A DNA stretch of 34,144 nt from Pseudomonadota bacterium (GTDB lineage Bacteria; Pseudomonadota; Gammaproteobacteria; Steroidobacterales; Steroidobacteraceae). Location of the stretch: contig JABBNZ010000020.1 in NCBI GenBank assembly GCA_019352035.1, forward strand, positions 15,690 to 49,833. Reading direction: 5' to 3'. Positions 24,058 to 33,460 of the stretch are shown here, piece after piece (position 1 is the first letter of the stretch; the number at the start of each line of letters is the position of its first letter). The notes under the pieces were generated by a model that saw only the letters and a list, made by a program, of their open reading frames with translations, was not told where the DNA came from and ran no database searches. The position numbers were made by a program, and so were the translations under genes.

Positions 24058-24096
24058 TTCACACGGCAGGGGCCACTGGTTCGATCGCGGTACCGC
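24058..24096 (+). repeat. att-like core copy 1: 3' half of a degenerate tRNA-Val(CAC)
   Basis: This is the first of three identical 39-bp copies, running from TTCACACGGCAGG to CGGTACCGC. With CTGCC at 24053-24057 it folds as an anticodon arm: stem CTGCC/GGCAG and loop TTCACAC (anticodon CAC). It continues as a T-arm-like ACTGG-TTCGATC-GCGGT, acceptor strand ACCGCGC, then A-CCA (24099-24102). The T-stem has a G-G mismatch at the normally invariant 53-61 pair, and no D-arm or 5' acceptor strand lies upstream. It is therefore a 3' remnant, not a working tRNA. Repeats that begin at a tRNA anticodon loop are typical crossover sites for tyrosine integrases. Confidence 0.75.
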
Positions 24097-24132
24097 GCAC
24101 CAGAATCAAGAACTTACGAAACAAATGCCCTT

Positions 24133-24151
24133 CCGTACGGAAACTGTACGG
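24133..24151. repeat. Palindrome CCGTAC-N7-GTACGG at the left end of cassette 1
   Basis: These are perfect 6-bp arms with spacer GGAAACT, followed by AAAA. The same arms and spacing occur at 26472-26490, 38 bases after att core copy 2 (here 36). In related islands this position is just upstream of the integrase gene, so it may be an old integrase or excisionase binding site; that is inference. Confidence 0.55.
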
Positions 24152-24241
24152 AAAACCTTCGCCGCGGTGGCACCCTCCCGCTCTCGCGCTCTGATCATGA
24201 GCCGACGTCTGGATCGACACTGAAGGCGTCTTCGACGCGCC

Positions 24242-24270
24242 CGCAGGTTCAAATCGTGTCACCCAGACGA
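24242..24270 (+). repeat. Possible tRNA-Pro 3'-end remnant
   Basis: The 29 bases starting CGCAGGTTCAAATC and ending CACCCAGACGA differ at about three positions from the 3' end of proteobacterial tRNA-Pro as I recall it (CGCAGGTTCAAATC...CACCCCGACCA). No anticodon arm precedes it. It could be a decayed attachment site of another element. Comparison is from memory, so this is tentative. Confidence 0.35.
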
Positions 24271-24307
24271 CAGCCGCGCAGTCAAGGCGGTCTGTATCTG
24301 CATAGGC

Positions 24308-24811
24308 TTACGCGTCGTCATCCGGTTTTGCATTTCCGGCGCGAGCTCTGGTCGCGCTTTTTCCTTTTGCGGGTGCGCGCATCGGCGGCAACTCGGTCGG
24401 TTCCAGCACAAAGCGGCGCATCCGGCTCGCCACTTCCGGCGGAATCAACGTGGGACGGCCGCTGGTTGCCGTGATAAAAACAAGCACCTGTCGCACCTGC
24501 ATGCGCACCTCGCCGTGGAACGAGGCCTCGATGCGAACTTCGCACGAGGTGCGCCCGACCTTCGCGGTCCACAGCTTGAAGGTCAGCCGGTCGCCATATT
24601 TCGTGGGTCGCGGAAAATCGACGGTGAAGTGCACCGACGGAGTCAGTAACTGCTTGTGATGAAACAGGCCGGGCGCGCTCGCCTCGAGTCCGTCCTCGAA
24701 CCAGTCCTCGACAAAGTCGCTGATCATCTCGAAGTAGCGCGGATAGAACACCCATCCGGCCGCATCACAGTGACCGAATCGTACCAGGACCTCGCGTTGA
24801 AATGCCGCCAT
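24308..24811 (-). CDS. Acyl-CoA thioesterase, 4-hydroxybenzoyl-CoA thioesterase-like hotdog fold
   Basis: This 167-residue protein begins MAAFQREVLVRFGHCDAAGWVFYPRYFEM. The Asp in GHCDAAG corresponds to the catalytic acid of the 4HBT/FcbC group, and FYPRYFEM is the following helix. TVDFPRPTKYGDRLTFKL, VGRTSCEVRIEASF and VRQVLVFI are the remaining hotdog strands. The last about 30 residues are a Lys/Arg/Ala tail. An AGAGG ribosome site 7 bases before the ATG at 24811 decides this start; an open frame continuing further upstream overlaps the Fic gene end and is not needed. It releases CoA from an aromatic or short acyl-CoA. As cargo next to a Fic gene in an att-flanked cassette it is unexpected. 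Confidence 0.85.
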   Translation of the reverse strand: MAAFQREVLVRFGHCDAAGWVFYPRYFEMISDFVEDWFEDGLEASAPGLFHHKQLLTPSVHFTVDFPRPTKYGDRLTFKLWTAKVGRTSCEVRIEASFHGEVRMQVRQVLVFITATSGRPTLIPPEVASRMRRFVLEPTELPPMRAPAKGKSATRARAGNAKPDDDA

Positions 24812-24887
24812 TGAGAAGCCTCTGCTTATTCGGAAGCCGCGTCCACGAGAGACACTGCCCAGGCTGGCACGACGGTCCGGACGCGAA

Positions 24888-26117
24888 TCATTTTCTACGG
24901 GTAGCTCCAGCACCATAGTTATGGAGCGTTGACACATCCTCCAATACCGCATCAATTCCAGTATGTAAGATATTCATAACTTGATGGGCTTGAAAAGCCC
25001 GGTGGCGCCGCTTCGCTCCTTGTGCTCGGAGTATGTCCATCTTTACCAGCACAGCAACGGCGGCATTGGCAGCGGGGAACGAAACATTCAGCCGTTTAAC
25101 CAGTGCATTGACCGTAACAACAGGCTGACCGAGCAGGAGTTCGGCAAGGCGCCATACTGCAGCGTCCTTGCGGATACGGCGTGCCTTGAGGCGTTCGTGC
25201 CACTGGTCAGCGATAATTCCCAGCTCGCGCAAGAGATGCACGGTGTGGCGACACGAGGCTATCGTGCATTCGAGAAACAACTGGAACCAGTCAGACCAGC
25301 GCAATTTCATCTGCACAGCGAGTAGAGCGTCGTAGTATTCCCGCTGACGGAGCTTGAGGAAGGTTGCCAGGTGGATTGGGGGGTCCCCGTCTGCGAGGAA
25401 CATGAGAGGAAGTAGGATCCGCCCCACACGCCCGTTGCCATCGACGAACGGGTGGATGGCTTCAAAATGAGCATGAACGATCGGAGCGCGGGTCAGCACA
25501 CCGAGGCGGAGATGGCTCTCAGGATCAGGCTCATTGCGGATGAGTCGATCCAGTCCGGCCATCAGTCGTGGTACTTCCGCGGGCGGCGGCGGGATGAAGC
25601 GGGCATACTCCATCTTCAGTCCGCCGATGAAGTTCAGGACCTCGCGAAGTTTCCCAGGGACCGCGCGCGATTCTCCGGTCATGAGCTCCCTATGCAGCGA
25701 ACGGATAAGACGGGTGTTCAGCGCGTCGATTCCCTTTGTCCTTACCTCGGAGACGCCCCGCATATACGCATGGACATAGTTCAGCGTCAGGTCGGCATCC
25801 GCATCCACTACCGCGTCGGGTGTTCCGGCCTCTATTTCGTGCAACAGTAGCTCGTCGAACTGGGTATGGGTCCCTTCGATCTGGCTGCTATCCACGGCCT
25901 CGCGCCGGTTGAGCATATGGATGAGCAAATCCGCGTAATGCGGGGCACCGGCGATAGCATCGGCAAGCACCTGCATTTCACGGTGCGCCAGCGGCAAGAG
26001 AGGTGAATCAATAGGAAAGAATGCCAGGTCGGGCGGCACCACGGCATAGCATCCGGAGTGCCCCGGAACAGGTACTGCCGTAGCTCTAAGCGACGGGTGC
26101 AGATCAGACTTCTTCAC
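24888..26117 (-). CDS. Fic-domain protein (AMP-transferase type) with N-terminal inhibitory motif and C-terminal winged helix
   Basis: This protein has 409 residues. A Fic_N region carries the inhibitory motif SSQIEG (77-82, pattern S/T-x3-E-G), followed by the Fic catalytic loop HPFVDGNGRVGR (222-233) with His, Phe, Asn and both Arg intact. The C-terminus has a winged helix-turn-helix (VVTVNALVKRLNVSFPAANAAVAVLVKMDIL, about 330-362). Family knowledge: such class II Fic enzymes transfer AMP from ATP to a protein hydroxyl, restrained by the inhibitory Glu. The helix-turn-helix suggests DNA binding, possibly at its own promoter (see the palindrome at 26151-26171). The GTG start at 26117 lacks a good ribosome site. 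Local GC falls upstream of it, a sign of transfer. Confidence 0.9.
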   Translation of the reverse strand: MKKSDLHPSLRATAVPVPGHSGCYAVVPPDLAFFPIDSPLLPLAHREMQVLADAIAGAPHYADLLIHMLNRREAVDSSQIEGTHTQFDELLLHEIEAGTPDAVVDADADLTLNYVHAYMRGVSEVRTKGIDALNTRLIRSLHRELMTGESRAVPGKLREVLNFIGGLKMEYARFIPPPPAEVPRLMAGLDRLIRNEPDPESHLRLGVLTRAPIVHAHFEAIHPFVDGNGRVGRILLPLMFLADGDPPIHLATFLKLRQREYYDALLAVQMKLRWSDWFQLFLECTIASCRHTVHLLRELGIIADQWHERLKARRIRKDAAVWRLAELLLGQPVVTVNALVKRLNVSFPAANAAVAVLVKMDILRAQGAKRRHRAFQAHQVMNILHTGIDAVLEDVSTLHNYGAGATRRK

Positions 26118-26150
26118 CTGGAGAAGACTTTAATAACGATCCCATTGTTT

Positions 26151-26171
26151 AAGGATACTAGATCTATCCTT
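26151..26171. promoter_or_regulatory. Operator-like palindrome upstream of the Fic gene
   Basis: AAGGATA at 26151-26157 and TATCCTT at 26165-26171 form a perfect 7-bp inverted repeat around CTAGATC, 34 bases upstream of the Fic start in AT-rich DNA that would hold its promoter. The spacing suits a dimeric winged-helix regulator, possibly the Fic protein itself. Confidence 0.45.
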
Positions 26172-26269
26172 TAATTATCTAGGTGGCCATTCAAGGCTTA
26201 AAGCCCCCCTCGATTATTCCCCTCCCCCAAGGGAGTCCGCCGCCACCGCCGGGTTCTTACGGCAGCTGG

Positions 26270-26433
26270 GACAATTCTGGGACACTTCGAAAATGACATT
26301 GCGTGATATCAAATGACATCACGTGATACCAACCCCCTGTTGCAAAAGCGGTTTGGGCCCGCATATCCTTGATCCGTAAGACCCTGCCCCCCGTTTCACA
26401 CGGCAGGGGCCACTGGTTCGATCGCGGTACCGC
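26270..26433 (+). repeat. Right-end composite repeat of cassette 1 including att core copy 2
   Basis: About 164 bp that closely matches 28143-28308. It contains GGGACA twice with 11-bp spacing (26270, 26281). TGACATTGCGTGATA and TGACATCACGTGATA follow with 20-bp spacing (26296-26310, 26316-26330). A fully shared block GCATATCCTTGATCCGTAAG lies at 26361-26380, then CCCCCG and the 39-bp att core (26395-26433). The core continues to ACCGCCC-A-CCA at 26429-26439. The short iterated repeats look like integrase arm sites. Confidence 0.75.
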
Positions 26434-26471
26434 CCACCAGAAATCAAGAACCTAGCGAACTAGGCGCGGCG

Positions 26472-26490
26472 CCGTACGTAAACGGTACGG
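26472..26490. repeat. Palindrome CCGTAC-N7-GTACGG at the left end of cassette 2
   Basis: These are perfect 6-bp arms around GTAAACG, followed by TAAAA. The context after the core (ACCAGAAATCAAGAAC...) also resembles the left end of cassette 1 (ACCAGAATCAAGAAC...), so both left ends descend from one ancestor. Confidence 0.55.
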
Positions 26491-26635
26491 TAAAAAATAC
26501 GGCGGAATGCCGAAGCTGCGTTTATGCGAACGATCACCGGCGGCGGCATATCCACATTGTCCGGCCCCGCCTCGCAGGCTCAGCTTTCTTCGCTGCTCCC
26601 CTGCGACCTTGGGTTATGCCGCGAGCTGCGAAATC

Positions 26636-27835
26636 TCAGAGCAACTGGCTCAGAAAGGTACGTGCGGGGACAACCACCGGATCAGTCCTCGTGAAGCAGT
26701 CCACAGCCGCAAATGGCCTGTTCAGTACGACCTGAAAAGCGTGGCTAGCCTCTGTCTGGGTCTGAAAGTATCGGAGCGAATCAGAGAGCTTGTCATCGCC
26801 GTTCTTGACCTCAACCAGGAACCACGGCTTGCGATCCCGCACGACTAGGAAATCTACCTCTCGCTTCAGCTTGTCACGCAGATAGCGAAGCTCGAAATTC
26901 CCGAGCCCCAAGTCGGTCCACCCCTCGACGGCTTTTAGCAAATGGCACGCAATAAAGGTTTCCGCGCGCGCTCCGGCATCATCAATACCCGACCAGTCAC
27001 GCAGATACCACTTCGGCTCCTTACGGAGCGACTTGGCCACGTTTTTGAACCAAGGCCGCACCAAGAACCCGTAGTGAAGCCGGACGAGCAAATCGATCCA
27101 TCTTCTAACCGTATCGACAGCAGTGCCGATCTCGCGACTCAGGTTCGAATAGATCAACTGTTGAGCAGACTGCTCCGTGAGAATCAGCGACAAGGTTTCC
27201 ATCGCAGCCAGGTCCTGCAGTCTCGAAACCTCGCGCGAATCCTGTTTGGTCAGCTGATCCTGGCGTAGAGTCCTCCAACGGCGCGTGAACCTCTGATCGC
27301 GCTTGAGGAATGGTTCCGGGAATCCCCCGTGCTCGATGAGCGCCTCCCAATCTGCGTCAGAGATCGGCTTAGGCGATTGCACGACAGACTCGGGTACCGC
27401 TTGCCGCGCGCACTCCCCAGCGCTCCATGGGTGCATGCGGAACAGGAAGTACCGGCCCATCAGGCTGTCGCTACCACGACGCGTGATGTCCAATCGTGAG
27501 CTTCCGGTGACGATGATCCGCGCGCGATCCGCGTGGATATCGAAAAATCCTTTGAGAAAATTCTTCCATTTTCTGTCCTTGTGAAGCTCATCGAAGACCA
27601 CCACCGGTAGCCGCTCCCGCAGTTCCGCGAGTCCGATGTGTCGCGCTACGGCTTCGGGTCCACGGAGGATGATTCGGCGGTCGTCGACGCTATCCCAGTT
27701 CAGATAAGCGGTACTCAGACCGCGGCAAGTGGTCGTCTTACCTACTTGGCGCGGGCCGCTCACGAAAGCCATCTGGCGATGCTGCGCCAGATGACCCTCG
27801 AGGATGTGATCGTACAGCCTGGGTCGAGGTGCCAT
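26636..27835 (-). CDS. AAA-family ATPase with C-terminal DUF4143
   Basis: This protein is 399 residues from the ATG at 27835. The AAA_14-type domain has Walker A VSGPRQVGKTT (25-35), Walker B VVVFDELHKD (78-87) and sensor-like RIIVTGSSRLD. A winged-helix-like middle part follows (LSREIGTAVDTVRRWIDLLVRLHYGFLVRPW). The C-terminal DUF4143 has a PD-(D/E)xK-like core, EVDFLVVRDRKPWFLVEVKNGDD. Such proteins are common accessory genes in mobile DNA. Their role is not established, and defence or stress functions are only suggested by context. An open frame to 27874 exists, but the ATG at 27835 begins where family similarity begins (RPRLYDHIL). It follows AGGG at short spacing. Confidence 0.88.
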   Translation of the reverse strand: MAPRPRLYDHILEGHLAQHRQMAFVSGPRQVGKTTTCRGLSTAYLNWDSVDDRRIILRGPEAVARHIGLAELRERLPVVVFDELHKDRKWKNFLKGFFDIHADRARIIVTGSSRLDITRRGSDSLMGRYFLFRMHPWSAGECARQAVPESVVQSPKPISDADWEALIEHGGFPEPFLKRDQRFTRRWRTLRQDQLTKQDSREVSRLQDLAAMETLSLILTEQSAQQLIYSNLSREIGTAVDTVRRWIDLLVRLHYGFLVRPWFKNVAKSLRKEPKWYLRDWSGIDDAGARAETFIACHLLKAVEGWTDLGLGNFELRYLRDKLKREVDFLVVRDRKPWFLVEVKNGDDKLSDSLRYFQTQTEASHAFQVVLNRPFAAVDCFTRTDPVVVPARTFLSQLL

Positions 27836-27842
27836 GGACCCT

Positions 27843-27893
27843 TTTACGGTATATCGTAAATTGGTACGGACCATTTTATGATATATACGAAAA
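27843..27893. promoter_or_regulatory. Two palindromes in the promoter region of the DUF4143 ATPase gene
   Basis: TTTACG-GTATAT-CGTAAA (27843-27860) is a perfect inverted repeat 8 bases upstream of the ATG. A related imperfect copy, TTTATG-ATATATA-CGAAAA, lies at 27875-27893. The AT-rich DNA contrasts with its surroundings and likely holds the promoter. The pair of sites suggests repression by an unlinked or self-encoded regulator. Confidence 0.45.
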
Positions 27894-28142
27894 CAGTCCA
27901 GTCCATTCTGGGCCCCCCGCTATCATCGGCATTTCGGCGATTGGGACTGGCGAACATTGTACGGCCGCGGAAACTATGCGGACTTCGATCTTCTACAAGC
28001 CGGAAAATAAGGCGATCTGAATCGTTCATCCACACAGTAACGATATCCGCATAGGCGTCGATTCCGGCCAGCGAGCCTTTCCACGATTGGTTACCCCGAT
28101 CGATGGGGATCTCTGCGTGGCCATGACAGATCCGCCGCGATT
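27894..28142. other. Non-coding or decayed stretch in cassette 2
   Basis: A minus-strand open frame of 131 codons (27844-28239) covers this stretch. Its product (with GNQSWKGSLAGIDAYADIV and DSDRLIFRLVEDRS) matches no family I recognise, and the frame runs through the repeats at both ends. I do not call a gene; a worn-down coding remnant is possible. Confidence 0.35.
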
Positions 28143-28308
28143 GGGACACTTCTGGGACAGCTGCGGAGTGACATTGCGTGATATCAAATGACATCAAGTG
28201 ATAACTAGTCTCTGTTGCAAATGGGGATTGAGCTCGCATATCCTTGATCCGTAAGCTCCTACCCCCCGTTTCACACGGCAGGGGCCACTGGTTCGATCGC
28301 GGTACCGC
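28143..28308 (+). repeat. Right-end composite repeat of cassette 2 including att core copy 3
   Basis: About 166 bp parallel to 26270-26433. GGGACA lies at 28143 and 28154, TGACATTGCGTGATA at 28169-28183, its partner TGACATCAAGTGATA at 28189-28203, GCATATCCTTGATCCGTAAG at 28236-28255, and the att core at 28270-28308. After the core the sequence differs from copies 1 and 2 (CAGTCTCC instead of CCACCAGAA), so this junction opens onto a different element or the chromosome. A direct repeat GTATGGCAG (28338, 28350) sits where the other copies have their palindromes. Confidence 0.75.
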
Positions 28309-28620
28309 CAGTCTCCTTACCAGCCGGGTCTAGCTCCGTATGGCAGGCGGTATGGCAGATGGTCGGAGATTCGGTCCTAGATCGCGACGCACGCCCATAG
28401 CCTCACCGAGCAATTGCCAACGCTTCGGTTCCGAAGCGAAGAGGTGCGAACACCGATGCTGTCGAGCGCCATCGCCCGGTGAGGAGGCCACGGGGCTCGG
28501 CTGTCGCCGGCTCAGGCCCGACGTTCCGGGTCGAGGGCACCCGCAGGGGGGGCCTACCAACCCGCCCCCGATGCAGGTCCTCATAGTCGCGGCGCCCCGC
28601 ACTTCCCGCGCAGCTCACCA
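28309..28620. other. Gap right of att copy 3, no gene seen
   Basis: The open frames here look like high-GC shadows without family features. The stretch contains the GTATGGCAG direct repeat just after the att core and a perfect 8-bp hairpin at 28421-28438. Confidence 0.4.
28421..28438. repeat. Perfect 8-bp inverted repeat CGCTTCGG-TT-CCGAAGCG
   Basis: This 18-bp palindrome stands in a gene-free stretch right of att copy 3. No T-run follows it. It could be an operator, a transposon-end remnant or a REP-like hairpin. Confidence 0.4.
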
Positions 28621-30368: not shown

Positions 30369-30665
30369 CCACACCACCGCCCGGGCGCGCGGCTCCGCGG
30401 TCGATGCGGCGACCACAGAAGCGATCAGCACTGTAAGCGTCCTACCGTCCACAGGCTGGCGGCATAGCGGATCCCCCATTTGCGGGGCGCCGCTTGGCCG
30501 CCCGGCGGGCTTCGGCCTATGATCGCGGAACGATGCCTCGAGCTGAACTTCCGAGCCCGAGCATTGAGCGAAGGGACGGAGAGTCTCGAGAGCGGAATGC
30601 CGCAGAGCCGGCCGCTCCGCGCGAGCGCGATTTGACCCAAGAAATTGCCGACCTGGACACCCCGC
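30369..30665. other. Gap between SDR and AI-2E transporter genes
   Basis: Nothing firm is visible. A 50-codon plus-strand frame from an ATG at 30533 (MPRAELPSPSIERRDGESRE...) runs to 30685 and overlaps the next start. It is Arg/Glu/Pro-rich and could be a short leader gene, but there is no support beyond the open frame. Confidence 0.35.
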
Positions 30666-31712
30666 ATGGTCTCCCCTCAGCTTAGGCAGCGAGCGGCTTT
30701 CCTGGCCCTGGTGGGCGCAACCACCGCCGGCATCGTGGGTTGCGCATTGCTCGCGGCACCCTTCCTGGCCCCGCTGGTGGGGGCGGCCACGTTGGCGATT
30801 CTGTTCGTACCGCTGCACGAGGCCCTCGAGAAACGACTCAAGCGTCGCAACTTGGCAGCGGCTACGTCGGTCCTCGTCGTGGCCGCGCTGGTCCTGGTTC
30901 CAATGGCGTTCGTCATCAAGAGAATCGTCGACCAGGTTGCCTCGGGCGCTCTGTATTTCCAGCATCAGGTAGACACCGGCGCGTTCCAGAGCTTCCTCGA
31001 CCGCAATCCGCGGATTGCGCCGATCGGCACTTGGATCGAGCAGCACGTCGAGCTGCGCTCCATCTCTGCGGCCGTGGCTGCCGAGCTGAGCCATGCCGCA
31101 GCGTCGTTCTTGCGTGGATCGGTGGCGCAGCTGCTCGGCGGCTTACTGACTTTCTATCTTCTCTTCTTCTTCCTGCGTGACCGGCGATCCATCGTGCAAT
31201 GGGTCGAGCATGCGCTGCCGCTGAGCGCCGACGACACGATGCGCCTCCTCAATCGGATCACCGACACGGTTCGGGCGACGGTCTGGGGCACGGCAGCAGT
31301 ATCGGCGGTCCAGGGAGCACTGGGCGGCCTGATGTTTTGGATCCTCGGATTACCCGCTCCGGTAGTCTGGGGGTTCATCATGGGTGTCTTGTCTCTCGTG
31401 CCGGTGCTCGGCGCCTTCATCGTGTGGATACCCGCCGTGGTGTTCCTCGCGCTGCAAGGCCATTGGAGCAAGGTCATCGTCCTGACGATATGGGGCGCGG
31501 TAGTTGTCGGCGGGATCGACAATCTCCTGCGGCCGATCTGGGTCGGTAGCAGGCTGAAACTGCACACTCTGGCCGCTTTCATCTCGATGCTGGGCGGCAT
31601 TTTGCTGCTCGGCGCATCCGGATTCGTGCTCGGCCCGGTCATTGTGACGCTGACCCTGGGACTGCTGGATGTCTGGCGCACTCGACGGACCGCCGAAGGC
31701 CAGTCCCGCTGA
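30666..31712 (+). CDS. AI-2E family (PerM/TqsA-like) membrane transporter
   Basis: This protein is 348 residues from the ATG at 30666 with about eight membrane segments. Two lie at the start (FLALVGATTAGIVGCALLAAPFLAPLVGAATLAILFVPLHEAL). A central amphipathic, soluble part follows (KRIVDQVASGALYFQHQVD...RNPRIAPIGTWIEQ), then LLGGLLTFYLLFFFLRD. The family's C-terminal signature region is VQGALGGLMFWILGLPAPVVWGFIMGVLSLVPVLGAFIVWIPA and IDNLLRPIWVG. Members were named after AI-2 exporter TqsA, but many have unrelated or unknown cargo. An in-frame TTG at 30645 is an alternative start. It appears to be a single gene. Confidence 0.88.
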   Translation: MVSPQLRQRAAFLALVGATTAGIVGCALLAAPFLAPLVGAATLAILFVPLHEALEKRLKRRNLAAATSVLVVAALVLVPMAFVIKRIVDQVASGALYFQHQVDTGAFQSFLDRNPRIAPIGTWIEQHVELRSISAAVAAELSHAAASFLRGSVAQLLGGLLTFYLLFFFLRDRRSIVQWVEHALPLSADDTMRLLNRITDTVRATVWGTAAVSAVQGALGGLMFWILGLPAPVVWGFIMGVLSLVPVLGAFIVWIPAVVFLALQGHWSKVIVLTIWGAVVVGGIDNLLRPIWVGSRLKLHTLAAFISMLGGILLLGASGFVLGPVIVTLTLGLLDVWRTRRTAEGQSR

Positions 31713-32593: not shown

Positions 32594-32806
32594 AGCCGAG
32601 GGGCGAAACGGGACGGTCGGTTTATCGCGACATGCCCCTCGTCGTACCATCAGCTCAGCTAGATTTTTGTCTCCGTCGGCTGCCAACTTTGCGGCGGGAG
32701 ACCCTCGATTCGGATCGCCGGGCTATTCGACGCAGGATCCCAACGGCTACGCCGCCGGTAGATCACCCACGCTTCGATGGAAATACCGCAACGGCCGCAG
32801 CGCCGG
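32594..32806. other. Gap between converging cytochrome b561 and HAD genes
   Basis: 213 bases between two converging genes. No gene or clear terminator hairpin was recognised. Confidence 0.35.
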
Positions 32807-33460
32807 CTACGGTTGCCAGTCGAGAAGATCCGCGATCCGCTCCACGGTCACGTCCGCGGCTGGATAGGCCGCGATCTCCCTGGCGTCATGAGCATAATGA
32901 CCCTGCCGCGGAAAGACGGTAGTCAACGAGCCGCCCCACGCCGCCTTCATCGCCGTGAGGATGCGCAGCTTGTCATCCACCATCACGTAACGCGATGCAG
33001 GGAAGCGGCGCACCACGGAATCGAGCATCCGCTCCTTGTGCAGATAGATGAGCACCCGCCCTTCCACCGCATCCCAAAGACCGGAGCGGCGTACCTTGCG
33101 CGGCTGAAAGACCACGTCCCCGTCCGACAGGATGGCGGTCGGGCCGAAGCGGCGGCAGTGCTCGAGCACCTCCAGCGCCCCAGGATAGAGACGGCTCGCG
33201 AACGGATAGTCCACCAGGAAGGAGGACATGAGCAGCAGTTGCGGCTCATCGAGGTTCTCCAGGCGATAGCGCTGCAGCGCGCCGAGATAGTCGGCATAGC
33301 CAAGCTCGGCGCGCAGTGCCTCGAAGATCGTCCAGTAACGGTCGCGCTGTGCGCGGCCGAACTCTCGCTCCAGATGGATGCTCAGGTCCTCCAGTACCGC
33401 ATCGTTGTCGAGCAGCGTGTTGTCGACATCGAACAGGAACGCGACCGGCGCCGGCGTCAT
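32807..33460 (-). CDS. HAD-superfamily hydrolase
   Basis: This 217-residue protein has the HAD motifs: motif I FDVDNTLLDND (nucleophile Asp11 and Asp13), motif II with Ser in AILSDGD, a motif III Lys in LHKERML, and motif IV YVMVDDKLRIL. A helical cap lies between motifs I and II. This fits a small cytoplasmic phosphatase acting on a phosphorylated metabolite; I cannot name the substrate. Its ATG overlaps the stop of the upstream Gly/Trp/Tyr-rich gene by 4 bases (ATGA), so the two are translated together although their products share no obvious theme. Confidence 0.88.
   Translation of the reverse strand: MTPAPVAFLFDVDNTLLDNDAVLEDLSIHLEREFGRAQRDRYWTIFEALRAELGYADYLGALQRYRLENLDEPQLLLMSSFLVDYPFASRLYPGALEVLEHCRRFGPTAILSDGDVVFQPRKVRRSGLWDAVEGRVLIYLHKERMLDSVVRRFPASRYVMVDDKLRILTAMKAAWGGSLTTVFPRQGHYAHDAREIAAYPAADVTVERIADLLDWQP

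Follow-up and report, generated by a model that had tools for sequence, protein, structure and literature searches.

Tandem integrase-less units between tRNA-Val(CAC)-derived cores in a Steroidobacteraceae genome: probable CIME-like islands of phage-type integrative origin

The window analysed here, a stretch of 34,144 nucleotides from the genome of a soil bacterium of the Steroidobacteraceae (contig JABBNZ010000020.1; G000:C97:15690-49833 in our numbering of genomes and contigs), contains two units of 1.9–2.3 kb bounded by three identical copies of a 39-bp core derived from tRNA-Val(CAC). We interpret the units, with a probability of about 0.72, as islands resembling the cis-mobilisable elements (CIMEs), derived from phage-type integrative elements and accreted in tandem. 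For the window genome, the listed completeness is 95.05% and the listed contamination 2.61%; the relatives with which it was compared are assemblies of varying completeness, many in hundreds of contigs, and repeats break their contigs.

Comparison of sequences within the window reproduced the coordinates of the three cores and the spacings of 2337 and 1875 bp given in the original prediction, which had described two tandem cassettes between att cores (Table 1). An exact 39-mer occurring three times in 6.4 kb is real without any chance estimate. Cores 1 and 2 are alike out to 48 bp (98%), and core 3 diverges earlier. Intact tRNA-Val(CAC) genes called by ARAGORN in relatives showed that the core is the 3′ half of this tRNA, starting in the anticodon loop; the repeats are thus att-like, as had been proposed. 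No tRNA gene was found in the window, and there is no tRNA 5′ half ahead of core 1. The predicted likeness of the unit ends was also confirmed. Counted with the core, each right end is 168 bp long (26267-26434 and 28142-28309), and the two are 87% identical, or 84% over the 128 bp ahead of the core. Each contains two GGGACA motifs 11 bp apart, two TGACAT motifs 20 bp apart and, ahead of the core, a CGCATATC block. This type of right end is called the R end below. The left ends of units 1 and 2 are 75% identical over 60 bp, have a TCAAGAAC stretch in common and both contain CCGTAC-N7-GTACGG, which we read as a direct TACGG/TACGT pair 11 bp apart. Despite these alike ends, the cargo of the two units is unrelated. 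The DNA following core 3 is 79% identical over 110 bp to the DNA following a core elsewhere in this genome, on contig C163. This third left end indicates that the array holds at least three units; the two units and three cores therefore stand, but the array is longer than was predicted.

Similar left and right ends, and two changes that all three window cores share and that are absent from the other cores compared, might be left by tandem duplication of a single unit whose cargo was then replaced by ordinary recombination. We consider this improbable: the cores are 100% identical but the R ends differ by 13–18%, depending on the stretch compared and on how gaps are counted, and in other species right ends of this kind flank different cargo.

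No recombination gene was found in the two units with PF00589 or with a profile built from 32 integrases of related genomes, in agreement with the original prediction (serine recombinases were not searched for separately). The window contig had no PF00589 match among the matches listed, and the 32-integrase profile gave zero matches across the window. Transfer genes were absent among the open reading frames of the two units tested against Pfam, in which small frames were only partly covered.

The original prediction had proposed a search for a full element with the same ends and an integrase, and one with the same right end was found in G079, a genome of another genus in the same family. This complete element of approximately 3.4 kb consists, in order, of tRNA-Val(CAC), a left end with TTTGGGACAGTTCTGGGACAGT, an integrase gene, a DUF2442 gene, an R end and a second core. 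The integrase, a phage-type tyrosine recombinase (336 aa, PF00589 E 1.4e-29), is encoded by a gene preceded by the same GGGACA pair as is present in the R ends. A decayed counterpart is seen in G014, where the unit behind tRNA-Val contains three pieces of a G079-type integrase gene, 65–80% identical and one of them inverted. When the 32-integrase profile was applied to the R-end loci, matches were obtained only in G079, G014 (the fragment) and G134. Among 33 intact tRNA-Val(CAC) loci, an integrase gene lies downstream in three (G079, G021 and G045), a fragment in one (G014) and none in 29; these loci are those that were fetched, and up to 8 kb downstream was searched (250 to 8000 bp being available). 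Relatives of the G079 integrase are present in 799 phage records, the best listed being 46% identical, in Burkholderia phage Paku.

Relatives of the G079 integrase, many of them behind other tRNA genes, have a pair of 6-mers 10–12 bp apart upstream in 12 of 17 loci, compared with 33 of 176 control windows. The scan covered 200 bp before the matched region, 17 of 20 loci had enough sequence, and some of the pairs picked by the script differ from those picked by eye. As such pairs precede relatives of the integrase, the GGGACA pairs may be arm-type sites of the enzyme. A 6-mer pair with the same spacing also occurs in the first 15–135 bp after tRNA-Val at 10 of 26 loci (at least 2.5 kb long), against 46 of 468 controls. 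Of 14 chosen genomes, 13 contain the exact GGGACA-pair pattern, with 17 matches in all; the reversed pattern had none. Twelve matches are at R ends adjoining a core, two are at R-like ends without a core (G012:C208 and G134:C208), one is at a contig end (G007:C148), and two lie just before integrase genes (G079 and G208).

R ends recur within the family. A 261-bp query spanning R end, core and left end had matches in 40 of 58 genomes of the genus, many through the tRNA core only; the R end alone was found in 13 of 217 family genomes and in 3 of 25 genera (at most three candidates were scored per genome, and the match in G012 spans only 41 bp). In a collection of 84,980 genomes the R-end pattern occurred in four stretches on three contigs. 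Two pattern scans of viral contigs gave no match. Alignment of 15 R ends from the genus showed that 14 are alike over approximately 165 bp, core included, and that G007:C82 is alike only near the core; all 15 lose their likeness inside the unit. One R end with core (locus L090, VBLP01000647.1) is on a contig titled Deltaproteobacteria, which is possibly mis-binned. Locus L029 (and the same stretch in L198) has at ~1130-1600 what by eye is a tRNA-Gly-like gene followed by a TACGG-type left end, and ~300 bp beyond it a tRNA-Val core with another TACGG-type left end.

Downstream DNA was inspected in ten relatives with a longer match to the Na/H exchanger gene upstream of the array. In G040, G024, G039 and G055 (exchanger 83–87% identical) the Na/H exchanger–Usp gene is directly followed by the HAD hydrolase gene, which in the window begins near 32806. 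The insertion is absent in these four, the only ones with the same neighbour gene; the six further relatives (55–62% identical in the exchanger) have other neighbours. Compared with these four, the window therefore has additional DNA from 24044 to about 32806. In the window genome the array is not located at a tRNA gene. A gene for an AI-2E family transporter (30645-31709) lies within the extra DNA; at E 1e-60 the remaining 57 genomes of the genus gave no match to it.

The original prediction had also proposed a search for presence/absence variation in relatives, and this was found for sister units. In G034, tRNA-Val lies directly before a flank that in G046 follows two integrase-less units and a decayed third core; likeness of the two flanks starts at the core, at 80–90% in short blocks, and farther away reaches 93.6% identity over 5.7 kb. 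Neither an R end nor an integrase was found in the G046 units. In G011 and G048 a gene which we take to be that of glutamyl-tRNA synthetase lies within ~110 bp of tRNA-Val, and in G009 there are ~1.7 kb in between. A Fic-bearing segment of 1711 bp is 98.5% identical between G046 and G044, the backbone upstream of the tRNA being 75.2% identical over 3963 bp. In G046 its right edge lies 8 bp before a core.

A number of these observations weigh against the interpretation of the units as CIME-like islands. The zero-versus-two difference between G034 and G046 concerns sister units and not units with R ends, and a second core is missing from the extra ~1.7 kb in G009. After the Fic segment there is no core in G044, and in both genomes its left edge is inside a unit; with edges that do not coincide with cores, what was transferred was not one core-to-core unit. 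R-end identity between genomes is about the same as backbone identity (69–91% and 74–83%, respectively), and the R ends thus give no separate transfer signal. The 8.76-kb insertion has no core at its right edge, near 32806. The left ends of the window units carry the TACGG pair and the right ends the GGGACA pair, and because of these different motifs the units look hybrid. In G134, from another genus, the R-bearing contig has two integrase genes left of the first core, 27–28% identical to the G079 integrase. The window genome yielded no integrase that could move the units, and in fragmented relatives one may lie in an assembly gap.

Whether the units have moved without an integrase of their own can be answered in two extreme ways. 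At one pole, integrase-less units would still excise and insert, driven in trans by G079-type integrases of passing prophages or islands. The maintenance of R ends in 14 of the 15 genus units with differing interiors, the zero-versus-two variation of sister units and the phage relatives of the integrase are in keeping with this. Against it, the R-bearing genomes of the genus have no intact close homologue of the integrase (matches to the G079 enzyme at E 1e-20 are all at most 44% identical, the G014 fragment excepted) and no GGGACA pair outside R-type ends, the left ends of the window units are hybrid, and the integrase wreckage in G014 points to decay in place. We regard present activity as doubtful, and the claim of the original prediction that the units are moved by an integrase encoded elsewhere was not supported, given the distant matches within the genus and the confinement of GGGACA pairs to R and R-like ends. 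At the other pole, independent elements would have inserted serially at tRNA-Val and decayed, with no movement after loss of the integrase. This is quite possible: few of the 33 tRNA-Val loci retain an integrase gene or fragment, the same tRNA is followed by several types of left end that differ in their repeat pairs (as judged by eye), and in both G079 and G008 such left ends precede DUF2442 genes or parts of them. It accounts less well for window units that are alike at both ends yet unrelated in cargo, and for R ends that can be aligned in 14 of 15 units.

For CIME-like islands, the pathway would be as follows. An integrase of the G079 type would recognise GGGACA pairs as arm sites, with crossover within that part of the core which derives from the anticodon loop. 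Integrase-less units would arise when the integrase gene was lost and the ends were retained, and insertion of new elements into a resident core would result in tandem accretion. The cargo (Fic, DUF4143 ATPase and others) would be retained as useful, probably in defence. The least certain step is that some units would have moved without their own integrase, by means of one from an incoming relative. As no matching integrase was found in the window genome, its units are probably sedentary now, and they may be stranded.

Units of one or two genes, toxin–antitoxin-like genes in relatives, and integron integrase genes in eight related genomes could suggest an integron or another known cassette platform. 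This is extremely improbable, since the units are bounded by a tRNA 3′ half flanked by repeat pairs, and the complete element in G079 has a phage-type integrase beside its left end. The integron-type integrases were at first taken for the integrase acting in trans and were then rejected, as TIGR02249 scored above the cut-off in all five tested of the eight genes. One such gene lies near a contig end in each of the eight genomes (L068-L075), and these are possible chromosomal integrons whose arrays broke the assembly. In 28 integrase loci (L060-L087; L118-L137 were outside the core scan) there was no exact core start and no CCGCCCACCA; the bare 8-mer CGCATATC in five of them and a bare T-loop 10-mer in two were taken as chance. 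The window genome itself has clusters of tyrosine recombinase genes at L076 (G000:C2, 8404-19809) and L077 (G000:C1), the C2 cluster with at least ten PF00589 matches in ~11 kb, mostly in runs of three. They resemble RIT (recombinase in trio) elements and were set aside, as they look unrelated.

Judged by titles and the beginnings of abstracts, no publication on this array was found in the open-access literature searched. CIMEs of streptococci keep attL and attR, have lost integration genes and accrete in tandem at one site (PMC5704250). The window units are likewise flanked by att-type sites, tandem and without integration genes found. They differ in being only 1.9–2.3 kb long, in having as parent a small element with a phage-type integrase, not a shown integrative and conjugative element (ICE) or integrative and mobilisable element (IME), and in that cis-mobilisation is only putative here. 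Where CIMEs are defined by derivation from an ICE or IME by deletion, what we observed is the integrase-bearing parent type in G079 and the wreckage in G014. Dehalococcoides ssrA-specific islands form tandem series downstream of a single RNA gene, whose 3′ repeat separates them, and 15 of them lack an integration module and are suggested to be possibly cis-mobilisable (PMC3146451). They share with the present units the tandem order, the RNA-gene repeats and, in part, the missing module, but have serine recombinases and reductive dehalogenase cargo, in contrast to the tyrosine-integrase ends, tRNA-Val core and defence-like cargo found here. The additive fGI-2 islands of Methylophilaceae at tRNA-Lys range from 330 bp to 42 kb, with repeats of the last 20 nt of the tRNA gene (PMC10872708); they too are variable islands preceded by tRNA 3′ repeats, whereas in the present case the right end could be defined and a parent element identified. 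CALIN arrays (clusters of attC sites lacking integron integrases) are integrase-less and helper-dependent, but are built of integron cassettes with attC sites and served by an integron integrase, not of tRNA-derived cores (PMC11389934). Tycheposons carry a XerD-type recombinase inside the element at a tRNA gene (PMC10872708); no tyrosine recombinase was found in the window units. The present analysis adds the small size of the units, a right end that could be defined, a parent that still has its integrase together with the remnant of it, and, in the window units, ends of mixed type.

The cargo genes are given in Table 1; by profile match, the SoFic-like gene and the DUF4143 ATPase gene resemble defence genes. 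Window DNA at 24880-26182, which includes the Fic gene, has 85–86% identity to DNA of G046 and G044. In G027, a stretch matching 195 bp of the window's DUF4143 gene (84%) is present 0.4 kb behind tRNA-Val. On plasmids only distant relatives of the Fic gene were found, the best 41% identical. Genes beside such cores in relatives encode HigB, Gp49-type, PIN and PemK toxins, another Fic protein and a HATPase. DUF2442 genes or pieces recur in R-end units (L115 5561-6007, L112 4559-5206, L045 6377-6646).

Table 1. Features of the array and its surroundings in the window
Feature	Position	Strand	Details
Whole insertion relative to four relatives	24044..~32806	.	Alignment stops at ~24030 and resumes at ~32801-32820
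Core 1	24058..24096	+	3′ half of tRNA-Val(CAC), from anticodon loop
Left end, unit 1	24097..24160	+	TACGG pair at 24136 and 24147; 75% identical to left end of unit 2
Thioesterase (4HBT) gene, unit 1	24308..24955	-	Pfam PF13279 E 7.9e-12; start codon uncertain
Fic-domain gene (SoFic-like), unit 1	24888..26117	-	Pfam PF02661 E 1.9e-16; PADLOC SoFic E 4.3e-76
R end, unit 1	26267..26394	+	GGGACA at 26268 and 26279; TGACAT at 26294 and 26314; CGCATATC block adjoining core
Core 2	26395..26433	+	
Left end, unit 2	26434..26500	+	TACGT/TACGG pair at 26475 and 26486
AAA_14/DUF4143 ATPase gene, unit 2	26636..27874	-	Pfam PF13635 E 5e-24, PF13173 E 5.7e-21; PADLOC PDC-S01 E 3.5e-48
R end, unit 2	28142..28269	+	GGGACA at 28143 and 28154; TGACAT at 28169 and 28189
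Core 3	28270..28308	+	
Left end, third element	28309..28420	+	TATGGCAG pair at 28339 and 28351

A more far-reaching possibility, which we think rather unlikely, is a tRNA-Val(CAC) cassette system of the Steroidobacteraceae in which minimal defence units of one or two genes, with an R end of ~165 bp and core as their sole mobile part, are moved in trans by integrases of passing temperate phages. If this were true, phages would spread anti-phage genes between species, and the units would need no integrase of their own. Ends, parent, broken integrase, and empty and filled sites can be compared here within one family, and whether integrase-less islands are fossils or hitch-hikers thereby becomes a directly testable question. 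The R end also provides a specific handle with which to search for defence-like cargo.

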